This document shows positions 5,654 through 38,985 of a stretch of DNA of 45,266 bases, one piece after another. The position numbers and the translations under genes were made by a program. This DNA is from a virus, in the IMG/VR virus record IMGVR_UViG_3300046457_000247, positions 1 to 45,266 of that record. One strand, written 5' to 3'. The notes under the pieces were generated by a model, which worked only from the letters and a program-made list of their open reading frames with translations, was not told where the DNA came from and searched no databases. Numbering within the stretch: the first letter of the stretch is position 1; every line of letters begins with the position of its first letter.

Positions 5654-8600
5654 TTAGCCGTGAATGGACAGGGTGCCGGTAGCGATGGACGGAACGAAGG
5701 TGTCAGACTGGCGACTCACATTCACGCTGTAGTCGCCGAGGCCGACAATCTGGAACGTAGGGTCTTTGAAGAACTTGTTCAGATCGCGAGGATGTCCGAT
5801 ATAGCCGACATTACCGGCCCCACCGGTTTTCGGGTGGTTTTTGGTCATTTTGACACCCGGATACACCGTTATTAACCCAACTGGCGGAATAGCTCCGGTG
5901 CCGTTGGGCACGTCGGGAGAAAAGCTCGTGGGCTGATATGCGCCGTACTGTGAGTTGTTCCAGCCGATGCTGATACGAAGATCGTACAAGTTGGGTGTGG
6001 CATTGACGTAGGTGGACGAGAACGGAATGTTGGTCGTTGCCGAAAGGCCATCCTCGTCGGTGACCACCACCGTCAGTGTAAATGCCTCGTTGAAGTATTC
6101 GTGGTTGGCGTACTGGATCGGTGGGTTGCCGGGAGTAAACGGGGCCGTGGCGCTATAGGCGTAGCTGTTCGTCAGGCTACTGACTGCCATGATCTCGTCG
6201 GCGGTGAAGGTCAGGGCCGCGAGCTTGGCGTTGACCTGTGCCTTGTTGCCGGTGAAAGTCCAGACGGCACCGGGTGCCGCGTCGCCGATCTTACCGGCGA
6301 AAGACTTCGACATCGTTGCAGTCACGGTATAAGTGTTGCGGTTGTCGGCGTCCGCGACGACGAGGGCCGGGGTGATCGTGTGAACGCCGGTCGGGTTGTA
6401 AATTTGCTCGACGCCGCCGTTCTGGATCGTGTGGGGCTGGTTGGCCGCAATGCCGTTATAGGTGTGGGTGCCGGTCGAGGTGGACACCGTGTTGGACACC
6501 GTAACACCCATCGTGAAGTTGGCGAAGCTGTCGAAGATCGGCGTAAAGCGGAGCGTTTCCAAGGCCGAATTGACCAGCATCGGTGAGCCGGTGAAGCGCA
6601 CGATGCTGTTGCCACCCGAGGTGCTGTCCGTCCGGGTGACGCCATCCGGTAGCGCCGTCGTCGTCCCCAGCGTGCCGCGCGCAGCCGGGAAGGTGAACTC
6701 AGCGTAGACCGTGTTGGTGTAGGCCAGCGGGTTCATGTTAATCACGCCGCCGACCGTCGAGGACGACAGGTCGGACACGAAGACGTTGATCGAGAAGGAC
6801 TGGCGGAACGGGTCGTCGTTGGTGATGTAAATGGCGGGCAGGTTGAACGGCGTGTCCTCGGTGTAGGACCCGGTATAGTTCAGGTTCGTTGCGCCGAACG
6901 GCTCTGTCGGCTGCGCCGGAATGTACTTCATCGCCGCCAAGGCAGCATTCACTTCGGTGCGGCTGCCGGTCTTGGAGTAGTATTCGAACGCGGTCTCGCC
7001 GGTCGGTGCGAGCGAGCCACATCCAGTGCCCACCGCGTTGTAGATCGCGGTGATCGTGTCGCCCGTATCCGGATCGGTGACGACGATGGCCGGGAAGCTG
7101 AACGGAATGCGAGGATCGTAGGTATAGGTCGCGTTCAGGTTTGTCGCAGTCGGTGCATCATTGATCGGGGTGCACGTCATGATGATCGAACTGGTACGAG
7201 CCGGGGTTTCCACCGTGATGTTGAACGTTAGGTCATAGTTTGCGGCGGGCACAAACGTCACCGAGGACAGTATCGTATTGACGTGGGCGACCTGACCGGT
7301 GATGGTCCTGATCCGGTTGGCTCCAACCACCGTGGTGGTCGCGGTTGCCGTCTGGTAGCTGTTGCTGGTGCTGAGCGAGCCAGCCGCCGAAGGGATCGAC
7401 AGCTTCGCGGTCACGGTGCCGGGAGTATACCCAATTGGCACCGCCGAGATGGTCTTGGTCTGTACAATCCCGGTGTTGTCCGAGTATTGCAGGATGATGT
7501 TGAAGGTCTGGTTGAAGTAGGTGCCGGTCGTCAGGCTGATCGCGGGCGTAATCGCCTTGTTGGTGTCCTCAGTCCACGCGATGGTATGGTCGTCATTGAG
7601 CGTGTCTGTGGTGCCGCTGTTCTTTGGCGTGAAGTTCAGACCACCGATGAGCGCACTCAGTGCGACTGGAGTACCGGAGTAGGTGTAGACGCCATTGGAC
7701 ACTGACATCGGCAGGCCCGAAAACGTACCGACATCCGCAACCGACGTGGAGATCGTCAGCGAGCAGGCGTCCGCCGTGTCGGGATCGCTCAGGGTGATCT
7801 GCTCGCCGATGATGTTATTCAGGAAGTCCGGCCGGTAGTTCAGGGTGGTGGGGGCAGTGAACGTGCTCTTGTCCGCGACCGCATTGCAGTTCATGGTCAG
7901 CGTCGATGAGCCGCCGCGAGCGGTCTGGTCGGAGAATTCAATGCTGATCACAAAGTTGGTGTCCGCGTTGGCGTTCGGTGTGAACTTCAGCGCGGCGAGC
8001 GCGGCGTTAACCTCAACCTCGGACCCCGAAACCGTCCATTTATCGGTCGCGGCGTCCCACGTCCCGCCGCCCGTGGAGGACAGTGCACCGATGCTGGTGC
8101 TGAGCGTAGCGGTCACCGTCAGAACATCGTCGGCATTGACATCACTGATGGACGGAGCGGGGGCAAAGGAATAGACCGCATCTTCCGTCCACAGGTGCGT
8201 GATGTTTGCATTGTTCATCGTCGGCGCAGTCGGCGGCAGGATCGTCTTGACCTTGATCTCCCGCGTCATGCTCTGGCCGAGATCGTTGTTGATCGTCAGG
8301 ATCACCGAGAAGCTTGCCGGATTGACGGCGGCGATCTTGATCGCGAAGGTCCGCATCACCTTGTTGATGTTGCGCAGGGTGTTGGTCGCCTCGTAGTAGC
8401 CCGGTGTCGCGTCAACCGGAGGGTGCCACGATCCAGTGCCAGTCGAGGAGATCACGGCATCCGTCACCTTGCTCATGGTGAAGCGGACGGTGTAGGTCAG
8501 GTCCGAAAATTCAGGCCCAACAATATGCATTGGGAGGACCGGAACAGTGGTCGTGCCCTCAACAACCTCGAAAGACTGATTGCCGTTGATCAGCGTGTAG

Positions 8601-9790
8601 TCCTGAGTATAGAAGTTAATGTTCTCCCGGAGAGTCCCATCATAACGGTCAGTCACGAGCAGTTCGAAGCGTCCGGTCTTGTTGTAGTCGGTGGCTGGAC
8701 GGAAGCGAACGGTGTCGTGATAGGCGTTGAGCGCCGGGCGGACGGCGTAGCACTTCCATGCCAGCGCCCCGGTCTCGCTGTCGATGGCCCAGCGACCAGC
8801 AGCGCGCTCAAGGTCAGCGTTGAGGATGGTGCCGTGGACCAGTTCACCGTGAATGAACAACTCCTGACCGGTTTCCTGTTTCAGGAAGGCCAAGCTGCCA
8901 GCGTCCTGCCGCTTGATTAGAACCACATCAGCCGGGTCGGTTGTGAAGTTGAGCAGGTTAGTACGAACACCCTCGAACGTATCGTAGCGCTCGATGCGCA
9001 GGAACGGCTTGTTGTTGCTGTCGGTGAACGAGGTGGCGACGACGCCATGCAGATGCGCGTTGATGCTGATCGCCGTGGCGATCTTCGACAGGATACCGCT
9101 GGCTCCATCCGACTTGGAAACCGTGGTCCCGCCAATGGTGCCATGGTAATCGACCACCAGCGTGAATGAGGCAGATGGTAGAGTTGCCAGCGCCGTGGTA
9201 TCGACGCTGAGATACTGGTGGCGACCGGACACCGCCTTGGGGGTCCACTTTTCAACGTAGCTGACGACCGAGCCCTTGGTGAAAGCCGGGATATCGAACG
9301 ACTTGGAGGAGGCGTTGACCGTGTACTTCTGGAAGCGCTGCGCCGGGGTGATCGGGGTCATCCAGTAAATCGGCAGGGTGCTGACCTTGAACGGGTCCGC
9401 CTTGGGCTGGAGCGTCATGACGCCGGTCGCCCGCGTCGTCCCACCAACAAAGTTCGTCAGCGTCACCGGAGCCGGAATGGTCGGTAGTTCGGCACCATTG
9501 GCGTCGGCGTGATAAACGAGCGTGCTCAGGACCAGATTGATTTCGGTCGCTGTGCCAATGACAACGAAGCGCCCGAGATCGCCCCAGTAGACACCGGCCT
9601 CGCCGCCCAATTCGGGGTTCTGGCCGGGCACCAGCACAGCTTCACTGGACAGCCGACCGCGATAGGTGCTGGTTCCAAGCTCAATCGTCAGGACCAGCTT
9701 GGTCGTCCCGTAGCTGTCCGGTGCAGTAATGCTGATCGGACAAGCGACACTGCCGCGCTTGGTGTAAATGAACGTCTGTGTTAGTGCCAT
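5654..9790 (-). CDS. Giant Ig/cadherin-like repeat tail protein
   Basis: 1378 residues. Most of it, about residues 400-1300, is a tandem series of roughly 90-130-residue beta-sandwich units. Each ends in a VNAALAALKFTPNAN-like strand pair (VNTILSSVTFVPAANYD, VNAALAAMKYIPAQP, VNSALETLRFTPIFD, VNAKLAALTFTADE) and begins with a D-DTGDT or DPDTADACSL calcium-site-like segment. This is the cadherin/Ig-like repeat type found in large surface adhesins. The N-terminal 400 residues are different and may attach it to the tail tip. The same repeat occurs in the J-like protein upstream. It has a good GGAG site before ATG 9790, a late-promoter motif 45 bases upstream and a terminator after it. It is probably a long side fibre or decoration that binds the host surface. 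Confidence 0.75.
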   Translation of the reverse strand: MALTQTFIYTKRGSVACPISITAPDSYGTTKLVLTIELGTSTYRGRLSSEAVLVPGQNPELGGEAGVYWGDLGRFVVIGTATEINLVLSTLVYHADANGAELPTIPAPVTLTNFVGGTTRATGVMTLQPKADPFKVSTLPIYWMTPITPAQRFQKYTVNASSKSFDIPAFTKGSVVSYVEKWTPKAVSGRHQYLSVDTTALATLPSASFTLVVDYHGTIGGTTVSKSDGASGILSKIATAISINAHLHGVVATSFTDSNNKPFLRIERYDTFEGVRTNLLNFTTDPADVVLIKRQDAGSLAFLKQETGQELFIHGELVHGTILNADLERAAGRWAIDSETGALAWKCYAVRPALNAYHDTVRFRPATDYNKTGRFELLVTDRYDGTLRENINFYTQDYTLINGNQSFEVVEGTTTVPVLPMHIVGPEFSDLTYTVRFTMSKVTDAVISSTGTGSWHPPVDATPGYYEATNTLRNINKVMRTFAIKIAAVNPASFSVILTINNDLGQSMTREIKVKTILPPTAPTMNNANITHLWTEDAVYSFAPAPSISDVNADDVLTVTATLSTSIGALSSTGGGTWDAATDKWTVSGSEVEVNAALAALKFTPNANADTNFVISIEFSDQTARGGSSTLTMNCNAVADKSTFTAPTTLNYRPDFLNNIIGEQITLSDPDTADACSLTISTSVADVGTFSGLPMSVSNGVYTYSGTPVALSALIGGLNFTPKNSGTTDTLNDDHTIAWTEDTNKAITPAISLTTGTYFNQTFNIILQYSDNTGIVQTKTISAVPIGYTPGTVTAKLSIPSAAGSLSTSNSYQTATATTTVVGANRIRTITGQVAHVNTILSSVTFVPAANYDLTFNITVETPARTSSIIMTCTPINDAPTATNLNATYTYDPRIPFSFPAIVVTDPDTGDTITAIYNAVGTGCGSLAPTGETAFEYYSKTGSRTEVNAALAAMKYIPAQPTEPFGATNLNYTGSYTEDTPFNLPAIYITNDDPFRQSFSINVFVSDLSSSTVGGVINMNPLAYTNTVYAEFTFPAARGTLGTTTALPDGVTRTDSTSGGNSIVRFTGSPMLVNSALETLRFTPIFDSFANFTMGVTVSNTVSTSTGTHTYNGIAANQPHTIQNGGVEQIYNPTGVHTITPALVVADADNRNTYTVTATMSKSFAGKIGDAAPGAVWTFTGNKAQVNAKLAALTFTADEIMAVSSLTNSYAYSATAPFTPGNPPIQYANHEYFNEAFTLTVVVTDEDGLSATTNIPFSSTYVNATPNLYDLRISIGWNNSQYGAYQPTSFSPDVPNGTGAIPPVGLITVYPGVKMTKNHPKTGGAGNVGYIGHPRDLNKFFKDPTFQIVGLGDYSVNVSRQSDTFVPSIATGTLSIHG

Positions 9791-35089: not shown

Positions 35090-35126
35090 CCCACGGGCTT
35101 CAGCGATGAAGCTCGTGGGCTTTTTT
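35090..35126 (+). terminator. Strong terminator after the coiled-coil gene
   Basis: A 13-base-pair stem with one G-U pair (35090-35102 with 35107-35119), a GCGA loop, then C and six T. A second ATG (35106) that would extend the next gene lies in its loop and is unlikely to be used. Confidence 0.9.
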
Positions 35127-35141
35127 GCTTGGAGGGTCATT

Positions 35142-36635
35142 ATGGGGCACTGGGTGCGGGACGACGAAGTTATACGAAAACTGGCTGAAAAATGGGGATC
35201 GGCCAGAGACTTCACCAACGCTTACATCACCAGAAATGAAAAAGGACTCCGCTACGTCACTTACTGGTGCAACGATCACGGCGGCAACGTGACGCAGCTT
35301 GTTGGCAATTGCCTGAGCAACAATTTCGGCTGCATGATCTGCCGGGGCAAGTGGATGACCCACGATAAACTGATCGAGCAGTTCCGGGAGGCCAATCCTG
35401 CCGAGGACGGTCGATGGCCGTGCGGTTACGACCGGGTAGTTTACGTAAACGATAAGAAGAAGGTGGAGATAGAATGTTTGCGCGATCCCCGCCACGGTGT
35501 GTTCAAAAAGTCCCCGAGTGACCATAAGCAGGGTAAAGGCTGCCCAAAGTGTGGGAAGCGGAGGATGGGTCCGACAAAAAGCTCCAACTGGCTGCACCTG
35601 ATCACCTTTGAGGACTTCGTTACAATGGCCGTCGAAATTTATGGCGACGCCGATGGCTACGACGACGTTCCTCGCGACATGGAGTTCTGGAGCGTTGATG
35701 TGCCGATCTTGTGCGGGACGTGCAGCAAGGTATATCTCCGGAGACCAAGGGAGTACCTGATTGAAAGGAAAGGCTGCCCGGATTGCCGGATCGATCCTCG
35801 CGTCCTCCCCCATCATGTTTGGGTTGAACGCCTTCGTGCCGTCAAGGGCAACCAGTTCGACTACACCCACTCCGTCTTCGGCGCGACTGCTGATAAGTTC
35901 ACCGGTCACTGCTTCAAACACAACGGGCCGTTTACCATGACGCTCGCAGATCATTACTATAACGGTAGTGGTTGCCCGGTATGCGCCGGGGTCGTCTGGA
36001 ACGACGATTATATCATCAAAGAGGGAGAGCGGCTTCACGTGGACGAGAACGGCGTGCCCTTGTACGGGTACTGGAAGGTTCGCGATGTGAAAAGCAAGAA
36101 GGACGACATCACGCTGTGGTGCAAGTACCACAGGGAGTATTTCACGGTGGGCTGCGAGGGCCATATCCATCCAGTTCGCAAATATGGGTGCAAGAAGTGC
36201 GGCAATCATCGGTCAGTGGCGCATCACTACCGCACGCCCGCGCACAAGGCGACCCTGCTGGCGTCAGTTCACGGTGACTTCCACTACGACTGGTCCAACA
36301 CCAAGTGGGGCAATGCCTTCAAGAAGATCAAGGTCGGATGCAACGTCCACGAAAAGGAGTTTCCGACGACCTACCGGGACCATTTTCACCGCAAGTCCGG
36401 TTGTCCGGACTGCGCGATCCTGCGGGCAGGAGCAAATCAGTCCGGCGTCAGCGAGCAGGTTGCTCACATACGCTCGCTGTTCCCGATCAAGTCACAGGAG
36501 GATTTGGAATACCTTCGTGGCTTGGTTCGGTCCGGGATCACGAGACCATCTCAGATCACCCTACCGGCGTCACAGAGCGACCTGTCATTTTCATCTAACG
36601 AACCAAAGTCGGAAGCATTTTATCTAAAGTCGTAG
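35142..36635 (+). CDS. Protein of six tandem zinc ribbons, nuclease domain absent
   Basis: 497 residues from ATG 35142 (GGAGG six bases upstream). It holds six units of the form C-x2-H-x-x-F-x(n)-GCP-x-C: WCNDHGG...GCMIC, CLRDPRHGVF...GCPKC, LCGTC...GCPDC, HCFKHNGPF...GCPVC, WCKYHREYF...GCKKC and GCNVHEKEF...GCPDC. In phages such zinc-ribbon repeats usually precede a small homing-type nuclease. Here the C-terminal 70 residues after the last ribbon show no nuclease motif (no H-N-H, GIY or PD-D/E-x-K pattern). It may be a truncated or domain-less homing protein, or a nucleic acid-binding protein in its own right. Confidence 0.75.
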   Translation: MGHWVRDDEVIRKLAEKWGSARDFTNAYITRNEKGLRYVTYWCNDHGGNVTQLVGNCLSNNFGCMICRGKWMTHDKLIEQFREANPAEDGRWPCGYDRVVYVNDKKKVEIECLRDPRHGVFKKSPSDHKQGKGCPKCGKRRMGPTKSSNWLHLITFEDFVTMAVEIYGDADGYDDVPRDMEFWSVDVPILCGTCSKVYLRRPREYLIERKGCPDCRIDPRVLPHHVWVERLRAVKGNQFDYTHSVFGATADKFTGHCFKHNGPFTMTLADHYYNGSGCPVCAGVVWNDDYIIKEGERLHVDENGVPLYGYWKVRDVKSKKDDITLWCKYHREYFTVGCEGHIHPVRKYGCKKCGNHRSVAHHYRTPAHKATLLASVHGDFHYDWSNTKWGNAFKKIKVGCNVHEKEFPTTYRDHFHRKSGCPDCAILRAGANQSGVSEQVAHIRSLFPIKSQEDLEYLRGLVRSGITRPSQITLPASQSDLSFSSNEPKSEAFYLKS

Positions 36636-36698
36636 TAGTTGGTTCCGGGGAGTGTTGGTACGGTGCACCAGTTCAATCGTCAACAAGGAATTTGGTTC

Positions 36699-37604
36699 AT
36701 GCGTATCGCACTCCTCGCTTCCGTCGCTCTGATCGGTCTCTCGTTCCCGGCATCGGCGCAGGTTCTAAGCCCCGCTCCTTCTGTCGCCAACAACGACGGC
36801 ATGATGACCCAGTACGGGTCCAGCAACACCTTCATCGGCAGCCAGTCCGGTAAGGACAACTACAGCAGCCAGATTCAAGGCAGCCAGTTCGCCACGGTGA
36901 CCGAAGCTCGGGGCGAAGTGACACAGACCGGCAACTGGAACCAGTCCACGCAGTTGCAGCGGTCCAACTACGACCTTGCCAAGACCATCCAGACCGGCAA
37001 TACCAACGAGTCGATCATCTCGCAGGATCGCAGCGTCGATGGCCGCAACACCAGCCTGACCACACAGACCGGCGATCTGAACAAGGTCGAAACCAAGCAG
37101 CAGGATGGAGGCTCGAACCGGTTTGAATCCACGCAGATCGGCAACAAGAACAACATCTTCTCTTACCAGATCAGCAAGTCCAACCTCGCCTACATCGATC
37201 AGAACGGCGACGAAAACAAGGCGACCGTTTGGCAGTACATGGGCGGCAATAACACCACCGACGCCACGCAGAACGGCAACAAGAACACCATCAACGTGAA
37301 GCAGGGGGAGAGCCGGAGCGACCGCTGGAACACCCCGCTGAACAACAGCACCTATCTGACGCAGACCGGCAATTCGAACATCATCACGGTCGAGCAGCTT
37401 GGCACCAGCAGCGGGGCGAACATCTACCAGACCGGCAACAACAACATCGGGTCCGTCTGGCAGTACAGCGGTACGGCTAATCAGGCGACGATCACACAGA
37501 ATGGCGACATGAACCACGGCAGCGTCAGCCAGCAGGGCAGCAAGGACTGGGGCCGCATCTATCAGCAGGGCTACGACAACGCGGCCCACATGACGCAGAA
37601 GTAA
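36699..37604 (+). CDS. Secreted curlin-repeat (CsgA/CsgB-like) protein
   Basis: 301 residues from ATG 36699 (AAGGA nine bases upstream). The first 20 residues, MRIALLASVALIGLSFPASA, are a Sec signal peptide with an A-S-A cleavage site. From about residue 35 on there are roughly a dozen repeats with the curlin pattern Q-x-G-x-x-N, such as TQTGNWNQS, IQTGNTNES, TQTGDLNKV, QNGNKNTI, TQTGNSNII, YQTGNNNIG and TQNGDMNHG, with some degenerate units (QQGSKDWG, QQGYDNAA). Curlin subunits form extracellular amyloid fibres. Host-like moron, or a phage surface protein; no CsgE/F/G partner genes are in the window. Strong terminators stand before (35090) and after (37632) this section. Confidence 0.8.
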   Translation: MRIALLASVALIGLSFPASAQVLSPAPSVANNDGMMTQYGSSNTFIGSQSGKDNYSSQIQGSQFATVTEARGEVTQTGNWNQSTQLQRSNYDLAKTIQTGNTNESIISQDRSVDGRNTSLTTQTGDLNKVETKQQDGGSNRFESTQIGNKNNIFSYQISKSNLAYIDQNGDENKATVWQYMGGNNTTDATQNGNKNTINVKQGESRSDRWNTPLNNSTYLTQTGNSNIITVEQLGTSSGANIYQTGNNNIGSVWQYSGTANQATITQNGDMNHGSVSQQGSKDWGRIYQQGYDNAAHMTQK

Positions 37605-37631
37605 GCCATTCCCGACAATTTGAGCCGTCTT

Positions 37632-37668
37632 GGCCCCGTCAGAGAAATCTGGCGGGGCCGTCTTTTTT
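37632..37668 (+). terminator. Strong terminator after the curlin-like gene
   Basis: A twelve-base-pair stem (GGCCCCG, T-G pair, CAGA; 37632-37643 with 37648-37659), a GAAA loop, then GTC and six T. Confidence 0.9.
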
Positions 37669-37671
37669 GCG

Positions 37672-37700
37672 TTGACAGCGGGGGCGAATCAGCCTCCAAT
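37672..37700 (+). promoter_or_regulatory. Sigma70-type promoter, TTGACA-17-TCCAAT
   Basis: A perfect -35 (TTGACA, 37672-37677), 17 bases, then TCCAAT (37695-37700; four of six). The -10 is inside the inverted repeat at 37693-37733. It would start an early transcript into the replication-type genes. Confidence 0.6.
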
Positions 37701-37733
37701 CCCATTGGTAATCGTGTTAACCAAGATTGGAGG
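37693..37733. promoter_or_regulatory. Nested inverted repeat over the -10, candidate operator
   Basis: Outer arms CCTCCAATC and GATTGGAGG (nine of nine), inner arms TTGGT and ACCAA (five of five), ten-base centre. It covers the -10 and the predicted start, a position from which a bound repressor would block transcription. Alternatively it folds at the 5' end of the mRNA. Confidence 0.6.
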
Positions 37734-37804
37734 ACGGACCGGAAAACTGGAGGCCATCATAACGAAACCCCGCCGCGCTGGTAAGAGCAGGGCAGGGTTC
37801 CGAA

Positions 37805-37840
37805 CCTATAGGAAGACGCTTTGCAACCTCATCCTATAGG
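37805..37840. repeat. Two CCTATAGG palindromes 28 bases apart
   Basis: Identical eight-base palindromes at 37805-37812 and 37833-37840, in the leader between the promoter and the replication-type gene. Confidence 0.45.
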
Positions 37841-37850
37841 CTCGGCATCA

Positions 37851-37873
37851 CCGGTCAATGTTTTTTTGACCGG
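37851..37873. repeat. Inverted repeat CCGGTCAA / TTGACCGG
   Basis: Perfect eight-base arms with a T-rich seven-base loop, between the CCTATAGG pair and the next gene. Confidence 0.5.
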
Positions 37874-37917
37874 ATACCCAGCTTTTGTCTGCGCGGCTAA
37901 CCAACAGGATAGCTGCC

Positions 37918-38985
37918 TTGACCGACCGATATGGAATTGTTACCGCCGACATCTTCGACCACGAGCCCGATCCGGGCGCGGTCGCCGTCTTCACCTTCCT
38001 TGCCGTCCACGCCGGGCGGGATGGCTGCTGCTGGCCGAGCCTGAGCACCATCGCCGCCAAGGTCAAACGCTCGGTGCCGTGGGTGATCGAGAAACTGGAC
38101 TGGCTGCGCTCCCACGATCTGGTCACGGAGCCGGAAACCCGCCCGGCGCGGGCAGCGGGGGCGCGCTCCAACGTTTATCAAATCCGCCGCCCAGCACTAA
38201 AGAAATCACGGCCCAACCCTCAGCCCGCTGCACACAAACAGGTAGGGGAACAGGTAGATGAACAAAGACTCCCCCCTTACCCCCCGATGGGGGGCGAGAG
38301 AGGGGGTTCTTCGCCATCGGTTCCGAGGGAAAGGCGGGAGCGGAGGCAACGGACTCCGGCGCTGGATACCGACGCGGCGGTAGACAGGGCGGTGGAGCAT
38401 GCAGAGGCGTCTATCAGCCGCGCAGGAGGCGCTGTGGGGGCTGCTGGCTCAGCAGGGTGTGCGCTGACCGTCGTTGGCTCCAACGCCATCAGCGGCGCTC
38501 TGACGGCCCCTGCGACCCCACAGGAGACCCGAATCGCGGAGTGGGCGATTTCCTACTCCTACTCCGAGACGCGGATGGTGGATTGGGCCGACGATATCAA
38601 GGATCAGATGGTCCGCGAGATCGACCTGCTGGATACCGCCATCGCCCGGCAGGAGCAGGAGTTGCGTGGGGCCGACCCGGCGACGATAGGGACCGTCCTG
38701 AAGCCGCTGATCGCCGGGAAGGACTGCTCCGATGTTTCATGGGAAACATTGGCCTACAGCCTGTCGCTGGAGATCGCCACGCTCCATACCTCGCTCCCGG
38801 CCGGGCTGCTGATGCGGGCGGCGCGGGAGGTGATGAAGAAGAAAACCGGCTACCATAAGCGGCGGATCGAGGCGGGCGACCTGATCGCCGCCGTCAAGCC
38901 CGCCATCGAGGTCGAGGAGGAGCGCCTGCGGCGGCTGAAGGATATCCGGGCCAAGGTCGCCCACCTCAAGGACAGGAGGCGCTAG
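37918..38985 (+). CDS. Helix-turn-helix replication-type protein
   Basis: 355 residues from TTG 37918 (AGGA eight bases upstream); a TTG at 37885 has no site. The first 75 residues form a winged-helix-type domain: VFTFLAVHAGRDGCCWPSLS, then TIAAKVKRSVPWVIEKLDWL, then LVTEPETR, the HTH_36 pattern of phage replication initiators. A proline/arginine-rich linker follows (residues 95-155). The second half is helical (IAEWAISYSYSETRMVDWAD, MREIDLLDTAIARQEQEL). It lies after the promoter/operator region and upstream of a helicase-like gene. Role in replication initiation or as a transcription factor is inferred. It ends in CTAG shared with the convergent gene. Confidence 0.65.
   Translation: MTDRYGIVTADIFDHEPDPGAVAVFTFLAVHAGRDGCCWPSLSTIAAKVKRSVPWVIEKLDWLRSHDLVTEPETRPARAAGARSNVYQIRRPALKKSRPNPQPAAHKQVGEQVDEQRLPPYPPMGGERGGSSPSVPRERRERRQRTPALDTDAAVDRAVEHAEASISRAGGAVGAAGSAGCALTVVGSNAISGALTAPATPQETRIAEWAISYSYSETRMVDWADDIKDQMVREIDLLDTAIARQEQELRGADPATIGTVLKPLIAGKDCSDVSWETLAYSLSLEIATLHTSLPAGLLMRAAREVMKKKTGYHKRRIEAGDLIAAVKPAIEVEEERLRRLKDIRAKVAHLKDRRR

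Follow-up and report, generated by a model that had tools for sequence, protein, structure and literature searches.

This locus raises the question of what a phage might do with a single curlin-repeat protein. Curli are sticky amyloid fibres of bacteria. Their genes have mostly been described in marine phages, as modules that include CsgGF, and what they do there is debated. The window, that is, the whole stretch of 45,266 bases analysed here (IMG/VR record IMGVR_UViG_3300046457_000247), is a virus record containing siphovirus head and tail genes. Its minus strand carries a portal (PHROG 145), a major head protein (PHROG 247), a terminase, a tape measure protein and J-like tail genes; searches for related phages via the capsid or the terminase gave distant matches only. 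The coordinates and the length of the phage-encoded reading frame agree with those given in an earlier note on this DNA, and its features are collected in Table 1. Two further minus-strand proteins lie in the tail region. One of them, 406 aa long (108-1328), is encoded where the tail block ends and matches phage families of the regulator of chromosome condensation (RCC1-type) with E=2.4e-32, and a 1378-aa ORF (5654-9790) has no match at E<=0.01 in either PHROG or Pfam.

Table 1. Features of the curlin locus and its immediate surroundings in the window.
Feature	Position	Strand	Details
Upstream neighbour, HNH/treble-clef endonuclease-like	35106..36635	+	509 aa; PHROG 681, 559; Pfam DUF4379
Shine-Dalgarno-like AAGGAA	36685..36690	+	8 bases before the curlin ATG
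Curlin-repeat CDS	36699..37604	+	301 aa; mature part without cysteine, pI ~5.4
Putative Sec signal peptide	36699..36758	+	residues 1-20, expected cut ASA/Q; by inspection and alignment with bacterial curlin leaders
Mature curlin solenoid (predicted)	36759..37601	+	~22-23 half repeats by reading of the sequence; 13 QxGxxN, 20 N-x5-Q; AF2 strands
Intrinsic terminator 3' of the curlin gene	37631..37660	+	13 pairs, 9 G-C, then TCTTTTTTGC
Downstream neighbour, replication initiator O-like	37885..38985	+	366 aa; PHROG 391, 1032, 270

About a dozen curli-like Q-x-G-x-x-N repeats had been noticed in the protein on first reading. The mature part contains 13 QxGxxN motifs, against a mean of 0.42 and a maximum of 3 in 2000 composition shuffles. 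Curlin repeats are described, in the accessible part of the source, as N-x-psi-x-psi-x-Q kernels with X-G-X-X arcs (PMC10192328); the 301-aa protein has 20 such N-x5-Q kernels where shuffling gives 4.1, and it also scores above the cut-off of the Pfam family PF07012 (Curlin_rpt), with 86.4 bits against 20.7 (E=1.2e-24, five stretches). A phmmer search of PDB sequences retrieved the curli subunit 8c50 with E=2.4e-24 and, weakly, E. coli CsgA (8enq, E=0.046). The NCBIfam models for CsgB (NF007506, 71 bits against a cut-off of 165) and CsgA (NF007470, 65 against 160) also match, below their curated cut-offs, and the protein is accordingly not assigned to either equivalog. Because the motif excess, the Pfam match, the sub-threshold NCBIfam matches and the PDB sequence matches agree, the repeats are, as judged from the sequence, curlin repeats beyond chance.

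The N-terminus, MRIALLASVALIGLSFPASA followed by Q, displays a basic start, a hydrophobic core and an AxA site by inspection. When this segment is aligned with bacterial curlin leaders, Ala18 and Ala20 are invariant in all five rows. An alternative TTG start at 36639 is possible and would give a longer ORF; the ATG at 36699 is preceded by AAGGAA and opens directly into the leader. Export of the curlin protein by the Sec pathway is therefore likely on these sequence features.

The stacked beta-solenoid that the earlier note expected is what the structure predictions return. AlphaFold2 (AF2) run without an alignment gave a model with a pLDDT of 60.7 and 22 strands at curlin half-repeat spacing, too weak a basis for searching by fold. 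With an alignment of 15 rows, in which the window protein was joined by 14 trimmed segments of homologues and most of the 40 matches listed were left out, the mean pLDDT rose to 80.1 and the pTM to 0.79, and most ten-residue blocks from residue 121 on exceeded 85; residues 1-29 and 207-209 are of low confidence. Because this alignment holds curlins, the curli likeness is partly built in, and as evidence this model is not wholly independent. Foldseek found no match in the PDB at E<=0.001 with either model. A second look with VIA-align placed 8c50 first, with a Z of 29.7 over 267 residues, an rmsd of 9.2 and 29% identity; the next chain reached 16.6. Three proteins of uncultured Caudovirales annotated 'Curlin associated' (A0A6J5MAT5, A0A6J5M3R0 and A0A6J5TAJ1) are the best viral fold matches in the structure library BFVD, with E from 4.9e-5 to 1.3e-3 (two at E<=0.001) and 18-19% identity to the window protein. 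Taken together, the models support a fold consisting of about 11 stacked curlin repeats. The 8c50 chain, the CsgA homologue R15.5 from Pontibacter korlensis, shares this curlin solenoid but has 15.5 regular repeats (PMC10192328, from the part of the text available), compared with about 11 partly degenerate ones here.

By reading of the sequence, the N-terminal repeats are degenerate, some half repeats lacking the N or Q ladder residues, and a long insertion at about residues 203-215 has a mean pLDDT of 63. Both features could stop regular stacking, as would suit a curli antagonist, namely a curlin with degenerate repeats which, by capping or poisoning host fibres or by jamming CsgG, would thin the curli coat and so ease the adsorption or spread of progeny. 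The C-terminal half, however, is regular and models well, and bacterial CsgA also has degenerate repeats, according to the accessible part of PMC10192328. We consider such an antagonist decidedly unlikely.

The curlin gene is placed on the plus strand between the endonuclease-like and the replication-initiator-like ORFs, apart from the head and tail genes, which lie on the minus strand. For this reason particle coating, one of the roles suggested in the earlier note, is the least likely of its options. Tail spikes often have beta-helical or solenoid folds, and some do appear among the weaker VIA-align matches; a structural or decorating role in the virion nevertheless sits badly with the putative signal peptide, with a gene that adjoins replication-type functions on the opposite strand and with the absence of any PHROG family at E<=0.1. 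We regard a virion role as extremely improbable.

The gene had also been taken for a free-standing, moron-like unit between strong terminators. The downstream part of this claim stands, as a 13-pair stem with a T-run follows the stop codon. A terminator scan of 36400-38000 found no plus-strand terminator 5' of the gene, and the second terminator-like site in that interval lies within the curlin gene itself, as a weak minus-strand match of 5 pairs, so that the idea of a unit framed by two terminators has to be given up. Only 63 bases separate the stop of the upstream ORF (36635) from the curlin ORF, and the two may therefore be co-transcribed. Gene and window have the same GC content (58.6% each), and the gene's GC at third positions, 0.85, falls inside the range of nine other measured genes (0.64-0.88); the composition thus bears no sign of recent import.

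No close relative of the whole curlin protein was found in viral contigs, genome contigs or the phage collection, and the 50 plasmid records that match it, mainly from Rhizobium, Pseudoalteromonas and Sphingobium, all do so at less than 60% identity. A C-terminal signature drawn from the protein is matched by 22 genome stretches; among ten genomes taken from 10 of these 22 loci, eight match the protein at E<=0.001. The best, from Stutzerimonas, has 38% identity over residues 105-301. In class-wide samples, matches at E<=1e-8 are found in 3 of 385 alphaproteobacterial and 2 of 369 gammaproteobacterial genomes, one of the latter being the same Stutzerimonas. Curlins of bacterial type VIII secretion systems (T8SS; Indioceanicola, Sphingobium, Sphingomonas and Stutzerimonas) resemble the window protein in leader, repeat spacing and the C-terminal QxGxxNxA..TQ, but their identities are about 25-39% among the matches listed. 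Alphaproteobacterial curlins align along the protein at 28-35% identity, including the leader and the same C-terminal end. Recent capture from any sampled genome has thus left no sign in the sequence.

Viral relatives were also sought with three repeat-pattern scans, none of which amounts to a census. The first pattern returned 100 viral stretches which, by eye, were all other Q-rich repeats or frames with stops except one (L017), and it was dropped. Many phage proteins among these loci (L010-L109) have 11-residue repeats of the QAGLANQ type, which look helical but whose spacing passes for that of curlins in a DNA pattern; such repeats are a trap for pattern-based curlin searches. The second pattern returned 24 stretches. 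Four of them are curlins (L017, L116, L117 and L122), and the other 20 have an unrelated protein with IQNGVKxT repeats. In these 20 (L110-L115, L118-L121 and L123-L132) the protein is identical or almost so from one stretch to the next; it has many VEDTIQNGVKHT repeats and is by eye unrelated to curlins. The third pattern returned 11 stretches, namely L017, nine curlin-like C-terminal domains and one chance frame (L205). The nine IMG/VR loci (L200-L204 and L206-L209) share a C-terminal domain ending in TVTQGQ or similar after varied N-terminal parts, and their products look like phage adhesin-curlin fusions. One of them (L203) bears an F5/8 type C (discoidin) domain; csgG is present in L201, L202 and L207, and csgF in L201 and L202. 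In Pfam searches of two of the nine, the score of L207 attained the curlin cut-off and that of L203 fell short of it.

Like the earlier note, we see no curli export partners in the window. Profile searches for CsgG, CsgF and CsgE gave no match in it, and the same CsgG and CsgF searches gave clear matches in two of the five virus records searched, both of which (G002 and G003) had been found through the curlin pattern. Neither CsgG nor CsgF was matched in the remaining two records, G001 and G004 (16 kb). PF07012 scores above its cut-off in all four records other than the window. A parallel case is G001 (L017), a 29 kb record with a terminase, in which a small lone curlin (PF07012, 75.3 bits) likewise occurs with neither CsgG nor CsgF in the record. 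It differs from the window in that its curlin has 116 aa, a weaker leader by inspection and other neighbours (Mom-like and anti-restriction). The genes of this record (L017, L210-L211) include two Mom-like modification proteins, an anti-restriction protein and the terminase.

Two explanations turn on this absence. No exact terminal overlap was found in the window, so the record may be a fragment, and missing csg genes could then lie outside it as parts of a complete curli system of the phage's own. Pelagiphage curlins do sit with csgG and csgF (PMC9599517, as far as the accessible text goes). Yet in G002 and G003 both genes are no more than about 5 kb from a curlin, while here the record extends over 45 kb with genes on both sides of the curlin, and a complete system is very unlikely. 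Alternatively, no host channel would be needed if the curlin gathered in the periplasm or the cell, were freed at lysis and polymerised outside, trapping debris, virions or neighbouring cells. The lack of export genes in the record fits such release, as does the report, in the part of PMC10192328 available, that R15.5 forms fibres in vitro alone; the same text states that R15.5 binds thioflavin T poorly. The putative signal peptide and the place between endonuclease-like and replication genes do not indicate a late, lysis-linked role, and we judge lysis release unlikely.

Within the accessible portions of the sources, pelagimyophages carry CsgF and CsgG (PMC7029224), HTVC023P-type pelagiphages carry CsgG, CsgF and CsgA/B together with FecR (PMC9599517), and the methylophage Melnitz has CsgGF, its authors stating that csgA and csgB are missing (PMC9004378). 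In contrast to this stated absence, the Melnitz records MZ577095-MZ577098 (e.g. H97) carry the annotation 'curlin associated repeat protein' for a product that is 67% identical to the L117 curlin. The uses proposed in the same three sources, as far as they could be accessed, are sibling capture, defence against superinfection, uptake or lysis control. The window shares with these modules (HTVC008M, HTVC023P-type and Melnitz) a phage-encoded curlin-repeat protein, and the viral loci L116 and L117 carry PF07012 as well. Unlike the modules, which have CsgG and CsgF (PMC9599517 and PMC9004378 in their accessible parts; G002 and G003), the window has neither beside its curlin and does not represent a pelagiphage-type T8SS module. 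Its phage is a siphovirus unrelated to the pelagiphages and Melnitz, and its curlin is 26% identical to that of L117. No description of a lone phage curlin was found in the literature available to us, which covers subscription journals thinly. Phage curlins as such are already published; the window differs in that its curlin stands alone and belongs to a siphovirus that does not resemble the marine phages and whose host is probably alphaproteobacterial.

This host assignment is favoured because portal relatives with E<=1e-20 were found in 7 of 385 alphaproteobacterial genomes (best 41% identity) and in none of 369 gammaproteobacterial ones, a zero that lacks a positive control and shows little, and because Rhizobium phages take the top four places among the tape measure matches listed. 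PF07012 matches none of the seven alphaproteobacterial genomes with portal relatives, so that no curlins were detected in the hosts of these related prophages. Five of the seven have a CsgG-family match, mostly weak, with one strong (G182, 2.5e-32). Two Sphingomonas genomes (G005 and G006) contain both CsgG and curlins. In the curli locus of plasmid p2 of Sphingomonas sp. NY01, unlike in the window, csgF and csgG adjoin the curlin-like genes, and a host with a locus of this type would therefore supply the channel.

Among the explanations considered, we lean tentatively, at a little short of an even chance, towards a phage curlin that is exported by host CsgG/CsgF and joins, seeds or decorates host curli. 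The phage gene would yield a curlin whose leader likely takes it to the periplasm through Sec; the host CsgG/CsgF system would then pass it to the surface, where it may seed, extend or decorate the curli of the infected or lysogenic cell. The phage might gain, more speculatively, by holding sibling cells together or by masking receptors from rival phages. Against export by host CsgG stand the lack of PF07012 in the seven portal-relative genomes and the fact that the best-scoring sampled bacterial curlin match is gammaproteobacterial (Stutzerimonas). The NCBIfam scores below the cut-offs, the degenerate N-terminal repeats, the insertion near residues 203-215, the Foldseek null result in the PDB and the possibly fragmentary record are further points against it.

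A bolder and rather doubtful proposal is that a single Trojan curlin passes out through host CsgG and, as a seed, a cap or a new surface, remodels the amyloid coat of the infected cell, and that lone curlins form a strategy distinct from the T8SS modules of marine phages, with L017 as a second case. The lone siphovirus curlin suggests that the fibre subunit, and not the pore, can be what a phage needs. The locus offers a small test system, with one gene, one protein and a measurable fibre, and the export of a phage curlin onto the host surface would make a functional amyloid the connection between phage infection and the aggregation or surface masking of the host.
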